Source: Caldilineaceae bacterium
GTDB taxonomy: Bacteria > Chloroflexota > Anaerolineae > Caldilineales > Caldilineaceae
DNA: 64,000 nucleotides
Direction: 5' to 3'
Assembly: GCA_026989655.1 (NCBI GenBank)
Contig: JALSIX010000006.1
Location: 1-64,000, forward strand
Position numbers and translations under genes: made by a program. Positions 25,497 to 32,112 of the stretch are shown here, piece after piece. Below the pieces are notes generated by a model. That model was not told the DNA's origin, ran no database searches, and saw nothing but the letters and a program-made list of their open reading frames with translations. How positions within the stretch are numbered: the first letter of the stretch is position 1; every line of letters begins with the position of its first letter.

Positions 25497-25515
25497 ATGG
25501 GGTTCGGGCCTGGAG

Positions 25516-25582
25516 GGGTCGGGGTTGTCCCAATGGTCGGTGGGGTGGGGGGTCTGCGCATGGGAGCATGCGCACTCCTCAG
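25516..25582 (+). repeat. 67-bp direct repeat flanking the RAYT gene, left copy
   Basis: This segment recurs at 26380-26446 in the same orientation with a single visible difference (T versus C inside the G-rich run). It begins GGGTCGGGGTTG and ends with the REP hairpin and CTCCTCAG. The copies bracket the transposase gene, so the whole 25516-26446 unit has long direct ends. Confidence 0.85.
25555..25580 (-). repeat. REP hairpin, copy 1
   Basis: The + strand shows TGCGCAT, a GGGAGC loop, ATGCGCA and then CTCCTC. Read on the minus strand this is a GAGGAG head, a 7-bp stem (TGCGCAT/ATGCGCA) and loop GCTCCC. The head can base-pair with the loop (GGAG with CTCC), a feature reminiscent of REP and IS200/IS605 single-strand recognition sites. 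Confidence 0.8.
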
Positions 25583-25692
25583 ATGGTGAGTCGGGATGGA
25601 AGCACATGTACCGAGGTATGCATTCCTCGAGATGGGTGTTTTTGTGTAGTAGGGGCGCGGATTTAGCTTCTATGTGCCTGCCTTTCGAAAAT

Positions 25693-25718
25693 GAGGAGTG
25701 CGCATTCTCAAATGCGCA
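25693..25718 (+). repeat. REP hairpin, copy 2 (inverted relative to the others)
   Basis: A GAGGAG head is followed by stem TGCGCATT/AATGCGCA (8 bp) with loop CTCA. Orientation is opposite to copies 1, 3 and 4. It is the only copy directly upstream of the transposase start, about 50 bp away. Confidence 0.75.
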
Positions 25719-25767
25719 CGGATTTCCAGAATTGCTGACTCCTCGCGCGGAGAAGGGGGCCCCCACT

Positions 25768-26307
25768 ATGCCAATACCTCGCTTCCACATTCAGGGACAC
25801 GTCTACTACGTCACGACCAATGTCTACCGGCGCCTTCGGCTGTTCACTCGTCCATCCCTCGTGTTGCCTCTTCTGGACAGCCTGAATTTCTATCGTCACA
25901 GATACACCTTCAAATTGCTCGGCTACGTCATCATGCCGGATCATCTGCATCTGCTGGTCTGGCCTCAAGACCCCGAGCAAATGGGAGCGTTTATGCGGGA
26001 TTTCAAGAAGTTCACCGCGGTCCGGCTGATCCGCCAGGCGGAAGTTGAAAAGGACCACAAATTGTTGACTGCTTTCGAGGCAGCGGGCTCTGAAACGGGA
26101 CGGAGTGAGCGCAAGGTCTGGCAGGACAGCTATTGGGATCTGAATATCTACACTGAGCGCTTCCTACGGCAGAAACTCAACTACATGCATCGCAATCCCG
26201 TTCGCGGCAGGATTGTGGAACATCCGGAGGCGTACCCGTATTCGAGCTATCGCAACTATGTGTTGGGGGACGAGGCTTTGATCGAAATCGATCGGGGTTG
26301 GCTCTGA
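25768..26307 (+). CDS. REP-associated tyrosine transposase (RAYT, Y1_Tnp/HUH family)
   Basis: This 179-aa single-strand DNA transposase-like protein has the HUH motif at 'MPDHLHLLVWP' (His59, His61) and a candidate catalytic Tyr139 in 'LNYMHRNPVRGRIV', the TnpA_REP signature. Family members bind and cleave REP hairpins. This gene is surrounded by four hairpins of one sequence type, which supports RAYT rather than a classical IS200. The ATG at 25768 fits the conserved 'MPIPRFHIQGHVYYVTTNVY' beginning; there is no strong ribosome-binding site. Its GC content is clearly lower than that of its neighbours, suggesting acquisition. Length and both motifs are intact, so it may be active. Confidence 0.92.
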   Translation: MPIPRFHIQGHVYYVTTNVYRRLRLFTRPSLVLPLLDSLNFYRHRYTFKLLGYVIMPDHLHLLVWPQDPEQMGAFMRDFKKFTAVRLIRQAEVEKDHKLLTAFEAAGSETGRSERKVWQDSYWDLNIYTERFLRQKLNYMHRNPVRGRIVEHPEAYPYSSYRNYVLGDEALIEIDRGWL

Positions 26308-26311
26308 AACA

Positions 26312-26337
26312 TGCGCATGGGAGCATGCGCACTCCTC
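26312..26337 (-). repeat. REP hairpin, copy 3
   Basis: Identical to copy 1: TGCGCAT, GGGAGC loop, ATGCGCA, CTCCTC. It starts 5 bp after the transposase stop codon. Confidence 0.8.
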
Positions 26338-26379
26338 AGGTGGGGGTGGGGACATGTGTCTTGGGGTTCAAGGTCGGAA

Positions 26380-26446
26380 GGGTCGGGGTTGTCCCAATGG
26401 TCGGTGGGGCGGGGGGTCTGCGCATGGGAGCATGCGCACTCCTCAG
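26380..26446 (+). repeat. 67-bp direct repeat flanking the RAYT gene, right copy
   Basis: Matches 25516-25582 with one visible substitution and the same internal offset (39 bp) to the REP hairpin. Its presence on both sides suggests duplication by recombination or transposition of a REP-containing unit. Confidence 0.85.
26419..26444 (-). repeat. REP hairpin, copy 4
   Basis: Identical to copies 1 and 3 in stem, loop and CTCCTC flank. It is embedded in the right copy of the 67-bp repeat. Confidence 0.8.
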
Positions 26447-26496
26447 GTGGGGGTTGGATTGGTGGTATGCGTATGAGGGGCTGAGGCGATGTTGTC

Positions 26497-31894: not shown

Positions 31895-31977
31895 GGGTGT
31901 TCGGGTCGCGGATCTCTGAGATGGTTGTTCGGAATCGGATCGATCGAGATGCGGTAATTCACGATTTGAGCCAAACG

Positions 31978-32112
31978 GAGGAGTGAGCATCCTCCGATGC
32001 GGCATCGTCCCTCTGGGATCGGCATCTGAGGATGCCGATCCCGCTACGAATTCGTGAACTGCTGAGATTGGCTTCGCTCGACAAGGGAAGACGGTCCGGG
32101 AAGGACGTCTTC
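31978..32112. repeat. Cluster of three hairpins, the first REP-like
   Basis: Three inverted repeats lie within 135 bp. At 31978-32000 a GAGGAG head is followed by GCATC-CTCC-GATGC, the same head and loop logic as the REP copies near 25.6-26.4 kb. At 32015-32042 a perfect 12-bp stem (GGGATCGGCATC) surrounds a TGAG loop. At 32087-32112 GAAGAC/GTCTTC and GTCC/GGAC pair with one bulge. The last could act as a terminator for the PHP gene; the others look like a decayed mobile repeat. Confidence 0.6.

Follow-up and report, generated by a model that had tools for sequence, protein, structure and literature searches.

Does the hairpin-flanked transposase gene in a 64,000-nucleotide stretch of Caldilineaceae DNA (hereafter the window, from contig C6 of a 4.09-Mb draft genome in 150 contigs) constitute a self-contained REP-producing unit, as a first-pass annotation had proposed, and do its hairpins represent a REP class of their own? 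The 179-amino-acid ORF at the center of the locus is uninterrupted and matched the NCBIfam RAYT model NF047646 with 115.4 bits (cut-off, 80; E = 1.9e-33) and the Pfam family Y1_Tnp with E = 1.1e-6; the IS200/IS605 model NF033573 reached 23 bits, below its cut-off of 55. The only sequence match in the PDB was the E. coli RAYT bound to REP (4er8), which was also the top Foldseek match in the PDB of the AlphaFold2 model (E = 2.2e-7), a model with a mean pLDDT of 68 that is confident only at approximately residues 8–126 and low beyond 126. The residues His59, His61, and Tyr139, on which the annotation had based its description of an intact HUH/Y1 transposase, are identical throughout the clade of related RAYTs described below, and with the above-cut-off match to NF047646 this description holds. 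The protein combines a single HUH motif and a catalytic Tyr with the RAYT fold; it is a RAYT, and like the others of its clade it is present in one copy per genome.

Table 1. Features of the RAYT locus and of the MITE in the window, and inverted-repeat shells enclosing REPIN cores
Feature	Position	Strand	Description
RAYT (TnpAREP) gene	25768..26307	+	179 aa, Y1-HUH nuclease (H59, H61, Y139); family models, clade alignment, fold match
Direct repeat copy 1	25498..25586	+	89 bp, REP plus flank
GGAG REP hairpin	25555..25580	-	GAGGAG TGCGCAT GCTCCC ATGCGCA, within direct repeat copy 1
GGAG REP hairpin	25693..25718	+	upstream of RAYT gene, loop TCTCAA
GGAG REP hairpin	26312..26337	-	right after RAYT stop codon
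Direct repeat copy 2	26362..26450	+	89 bp, 91% identical to copy 1
GGAG REP hairpin	26419..26444	-	within direct repeat copy 2
113-bp MITE	31952..32064	+	inverted ends CGGTAATTCACGA/TCGTGAACTGCTG, GGAG REPIN core
Left MITE flank	31947-31951		AGATG, 5-bp target duplication, one mismatch to right flank
Right MITE flank	32065-32069		AGATT, 5-bp target duplication, one mismatch to left flank
Shell CAGTAATTCACGA			5-bp duplication
Shell GGCGTGGTTCATTT			8-bp duplication
Shell GGGTGTGTTCA			9-bp duplication
Shell CAATGTCATTAAGTTAAG			10-bp duplication
Shell CAATACCATTCAAATAAG			10-bp duplication

All four hairpins at the locus have the head GAGGAG and a perfect 7-bp stem of one type (TGCGCAT/ATGCGCA), three in one orientation and one inverted, just as had been annotated. 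With up to three mismatches allowed, the hairpin pattern matched seven times in the window versus 0.01 times expected from shuffles, although three of the seven are not additional RAYT hairpins, two being overlapping opposite-strand matches and one a separate element at 31978. Folding as single-stranded DNA gave z values of about -4.5 for both hairpin types, and no Rfam RNA family was found at the RAYT locus. The nearest upstream hairpin reads on the plus strand and the downstream ones on the minus strand, and their heads point outward, so that the locus is laid out like a REPIN that encloses the RAYT gene. The direct repeat that brackets the gene does exist, but it is 89 bp long with 91% identity rather than 67 bp and nearly identical, as first described. 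There is one hairpin per copy, and 39 nt of the repeat recur at 26312 as a third, incomplete copy. Because similar tandem arrays of REP plus flank adjoin homologous RAYTs (51 bp × 5 beside L062; 80 bp × 4 and 47 bp × 2.6 beside L066), the repeat is best read as a probable local duplication of the REP cluster, comprising REP and flanking DNA. A target duplication or a composite-transposon end is a less fitting reading of this repeat.

Five homologues, 63–74% identical to the window RAYT, were found in other Chloroflexota, and all of them adjoin GGAG-headed hairpins, the stems, loops, and neighboring genes of which differ. When the 900-nt flanks on both sides of 80 RAYT-like ORFs were scanned with the pattern GGAGNNNGCAYNCYCNNRTGC (up to one mismatch), a GGAG REP was detected within about 330 nt of six of the six intact RAYTs of this clade and beside none of the approximately 74 other RAYT hits in Chloroflexota, where the 80 ORFs include one fragment beside another RAYT and some loci counted twice. 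The six clade members come from different Chloroflexota families, and many of the approximately 74 hits without GGAG reside in the same genomes as clade members; the REPs and RAYTs compared are related by descent, so the association represents few independent events. A seventh, decayed clade RAYT (L129, on contig C127 of G014), with an internal deletion between its HUH and Tyr parts, has degenerate GGAG REPs on its flanks; its genome contains 44 GGAG REPs. In the phylogenetic tree, the six GGAG RAYTs were monophyletic (support 100/98) within a larger clade that contains RAYTs with GTTC-headed hairpins and RAYTs from Bacteroidota, and the RAYTs with GTAG hairpins and the E. coli RAYT fell outside this larger clade. 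A GTAG foot is not present at the four window hairpins or beside the five other intact clade RAYTs, where the head is GGAG, with one variant, TGAG, in L065. This conservation of the head beside the clade RAYTs indicates that the window locus is a RAYT with a REP class of its own, conserved across the clade and distinct from the enterobacterial GTAG type, as the annotation had supposed.

Other RAYTs were also observed in these genomes. The window genome has a second, distant RAYT (contig C94, locus L007, 1501-1902; 34% identity) with the GTAG-headed hairpins GTAG-TGCGCACT-TC-AGTGCGCA, and two RAYT classes therefore coexist in one genome. Five Chloroflexota RAYTs that are 34–41% identical to that of the window (L036, L097, L098, L099, and L100; one clade, 99/94) have GTTC-headed hairpins with TGT/TGC-like loops and seem to represent another head class. 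A third RAYT group (L037, L039, and L040, in G030, G005, and G011, respectively) is characterized by the motif WQEGSHP and the hairpins GTTCCCACGC-tccc-GCGTGGGAAC and GGACGC-GCGTCC.

In the E. coli RAYT, residues W94, Q95, E100, H101, and R104 contact GTAG (PMC6006769, PMC8266576). In the alignment, the GGAG clade has W, Q, D, a variable residue, and Y at these positions, Arg104 having been replaced by Tyr in all six intact clade RAYTs. The main-group Chloroflexota RAYTs with GTAG hairpins read WQKGFWDHxIR, and nearly all keep D, H, and R. Judging from these alignments, Tyr at the Arg104 position appears to go with the GGAG head, as a correlation. Because only position 2 separates the two heads and the change in the protein falls on a head-contacting position, head recognition and the choice of cleavage site are open to direct testing. 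Under the guide model of PMC8266576, a GGAG head should leave CT cutting (A3-G4) unchanged and shift CA cutting (T2-G4) to CC.

The consensus of the clade REPs is G[AC]GGAG-NNN-GCAYn-CYCn-nRTGC. Over 18 distinct REPs, 96.7% of the cells of the stem GCAYn/nRTGC are paired and 16 stem cells have changed on both sides (C-G to T-A, C-G to G-C), whereas slid controls gave far lower pairing; the stem thus covaries. The last three head bases, G, A, and G, are invariant in this set, which was hand-picked from RAYT flanks and MITEs, partly via a pattern that fixes GGAG, and head conservation is therefore best judged from the RAYT flanks. The 3-nt spacer forms additional pairs in some REPs only. It had also been suggested that the loop GCTCCC pairs with the GGAG head as a guide. 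Such GGAG/CTCC complementarity is present in the three identical locus hairpins and incomplete in the fourth (loop CTCA), but it is not conserved in the clade: of the 18 REPs, 12 have lost pair A5-col16 and 9 have lost pair G3-col18 while the head stays GGAG, and head–loop pairing was rejected as a conserved guide. In a MITE REP with the loop CTCC (window 31976-32000), the head can pair with the stem–loop (CGGAGGA...TCCTCCG), a pairing that can compete with the REP hairpin during folding and was seen in this lineage only.

Genome-wide, the exact locus hairpin occurs five times, four times at the RAYT locus and once elsewhere. The GGAG pattern matched 52 times, against 0 matches for the reversed control, so that further GGAG copies, on the existence of which the first-pass annotation had made its reading depend, are present. 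Most of these matches are head-out pairs (REPINs) inside a 113-bp element with the ends CAGYMATTCACGA...TCGTGAACTGCTG, tallied at about 45 copies, one of which lies in the window (Table 1). Among the 34 element copies read with their flanks, the 5-bp duplication was exact in 16 and had at most one mismatch in 26, versus 2.6% and 10% of random pairs, respectively. With terminal inverted repeats and target-site duplications, the 113-bp elements are MITEs; the reading of the dispersed copies as plain REPINs was rejected because target duplications are present. Y1 transposases are not known to make target duplications of this kind. The inverted repeats and 5-bp duplications therefore mean that a DDE-type transposase, and not the RAYT, spread the 113-bp element. 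Many of its copies have drifted heads (GGAA, GGCG, and GGGG), as is expected of passengers. For an autonomous partner with CAG...CTG ends, no inverted pair 1–3 kb apart was found in the 150-contig draft genome, which may lack it. Naked REPs without a MITE shell number about four near the RAYT gene and few elsewhere in the genome, and there are only faint signs of an RAYT-driven spread of REPs in this genome. Of the proposed self-contained unit, the RAYT with its own REP class stands; the dispersal attributed to it does not, since only one additional copy of the exact hairpin exists and the dispersed GGAG copies are DDE-spread MITEs. REP copy number cannot be read as RAYT activity.

At least 15 GGAG REPs were found in 10 of 61 genomes (G000, G005, G011, G013, G014, G020, G030, G032, G038, and G056), and most of the other relatives had zero; the reversed-pattern control gave a single match across the 61 genomes together. 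A clade RAYT is present in five of these 10 genomes (one decayed) and in none of the other 51, and the remaining five are rich in GGAG REPs without a RAYT of this clade. REPIN cores of 62–65 or 52–53 bp lie inside differing inverted-repeat shells in G005, G011, G013, G020, G030, and G032, and G056 contains naked, partly tandem GGAG REPs and no shells. The duplications in the relatives were exact in 13 of 22 cases (8 bp), 5 of 6 (9 bp), and 6 of 12 and 2 of 3 (10 bp), and the 5-bp duplications outside the window genome in 6 of 9. No fewer than five unrelated inverted-repeat shells enclose the same REPIN core, a concrete case in which to ask how MITEs originate and whether RAYTs and DDE transposases act on shared substrates. 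Conversely, a single shell can enclose different cores within one genome (in G020, the GCATC and GCACG types), and cores lacking REPs also occur in the same shell; cores and shells are therefore separable. Among the shells with other cores, there was no precise empty/filled MITE pair giving the REPIN insertion point. In G020, five MITEs with CAATGTCATTAAGTTAAG ends (L326, L327, L328, L330, and L341) have cores of short repeats (GCAGGTT..., GTCGTCC...) around AAGTCACTTC and no REPs.

Several other explanations of the locus were weighed. The RAYT could be an ordinary GTAG-type protein or a nonfunctional relic, beside which parts of decayed MITEs, carrying GGAG hairpins, lie by chance. GGAG hairpins are indeed common as MITE cores in these genomes, and five genomes have them without a clade RAYT; yet chance proximity sits poorly with the six-of-six association at intact clade RAYTs and its absence from the approximately 74 others, the window-locus hairpins have no MITE inverted repeats, and the frame and active site of the RAYT are intact, which leaves this explanation very unlikely. 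We regard as highly improbable that the whole unit is a mobile IS200-like element whose ends are marked by the 89-bp repeat. In its favor, hairpins flank the gene, and 18 relatives lack the segment next to the same upstream gene; presence of the segment in all relatives had been named beforehand as evidence against an insertion. However, the unit is present as a single copy per genome, and the repeat holds a REP and resembles the REP-plus-flank duplications beside homologues. Y1 elements are also not known to make long target duplications. The comparison for empty sites, which the annotation had recommended, gave the absence of the segment but no clean empty site in the 18 relatives, because the downstream gene differs in all of them.

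The 113-bp elements could also be REPINs spread by the RAYT itself, with outer inverted repeats that are extended REPIN arms, given that each element has two head-out GGAG hairpins at a REPIN-like spacing. This is the least credible of the explanations and is largely refuted by the exact 5-bp duplications in the sampled copies; it is also contradicted by the presence of the same core in shells of very different sequence and duplication length, and of the same shell around non-REP cores.

The locus is therefore probably a REPtron, a RAYT with its cognate REP hairpins, in which the clade head is GGAG instead of GTAG. In such a REPtron, the RAYT would bind the GGAG hairpin in single-stranded DNA, cut near it via Tyr139, and then rejoin the ends, and the cut sites would be chosen through the head, as in the guide model (CT kept, CA to CC; PMC8266576). 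Cutting and rejoining would duplicate REPs beside the gene and yield the head-out pairs. The REPINs would then have ended up as cores inside inverted-repeat MITEs. Most of the present-day dispersed copies were probably made by DDE transposases that acted in trans on the inverted repeats, rather than by the RAYT, a second spreading step shown by the target duplications. For the entry of REPINs into MITE families, two routes would fit, namely random insertion followed by amplification and deletions made by the RAYT within insertion sequences. A more far-reaching version, in which RAYTs help to make MITEs, is possible but unlikely: REPs inserted close to the two ends of a full insertion sequence would be recombined by the RAYT, the transposase gene would be lost, and an inverted repeat–REPIN–inverted repeat structure would remain for amplification by DDE transposases. 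If this were true, RAYT and DDE systems would be working together, and REPINs would serve numerous MITE families as exchangeable cores.

Most known REPs have been sorted into GTAG and CGTC types, the latter without a transposase (PMC3733652). There was no GGAG head in the text of PMC3733652, PMC6006769, PMC2817692, or PMC8266576, and this head is likely to be new; this is not certain because the supplementary REP table of PMC6006769 may list one. With GGAG, a system that had been described almost exclusively for GTAG gains a further head class, one that comes with a conserved partner protein. The GTAG REPtrons of E. coli, Stenotrophomonas, and Marinomonas (PMC2817692, PMC3733652, PMC8266576) are similar in their Y1-HUH protein, single gene copy per genome, short tagged hairpins flanking the gene, head-out pairs, and local clusters, and the Marinomonas REPMb resembles the window REPs in its short stem, which a spacer separates from the head. 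In contrast, the GGAG clade has the head GGAG, Tyr in place of R104, a variable residue at H101, and the loop CYCN. The IS200/IS605 transposases (IS608, ISDra2) share the fold and the HUH–Tyr chemistry, whereas the window unit falls below the cut-off of NF033573, is single copy with many dispersed hairpins, and has flanking hairpins in inverted orientation.

Atypical structures are known for subclass 2.6 and class 3 RAYTs, the latter with CnGA (PMC6006769). TnpAREP subclass 2.6 (Bertels group 5), which is found mostly in Bacteroidetes and has 'atypical secondary structures' (PMC6006769), is by its published description similar to the window RAYT in its 179 amino acids, approximately 80 residues from HUH to Tyr, WQ, and Y-x-H-x-NP, but has NH[LIV]H and YIH[QN]NP where the window clade has DHLH and Y[IMV]H[RH]NP. 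RAYTs of Bernardetia (Bacteroidota) belong to the same larger clade in the tree as the GGAG RAYTs, and the hairpin of a Bernardetia plasmid RAYT (L343) has the loop CTCA/TGAG, the commonest loop of the GGAG class, without a GGAG head. For a REP within a MITE, one single-case precedent was found, QMITE2 of Coxiella burnetii, which has inverted ends and 7–11 bp direct repeats and contains a REP (PMC5896051). The link between the GGAG RAYT/REP system and DDE MITEs was unexpected and is more general than this precedent: QMITE2 is one family with a GTAG REP, whereas the GGAG REPIN pairs described here occupy the core of five or more unrelated shells, across several genera.
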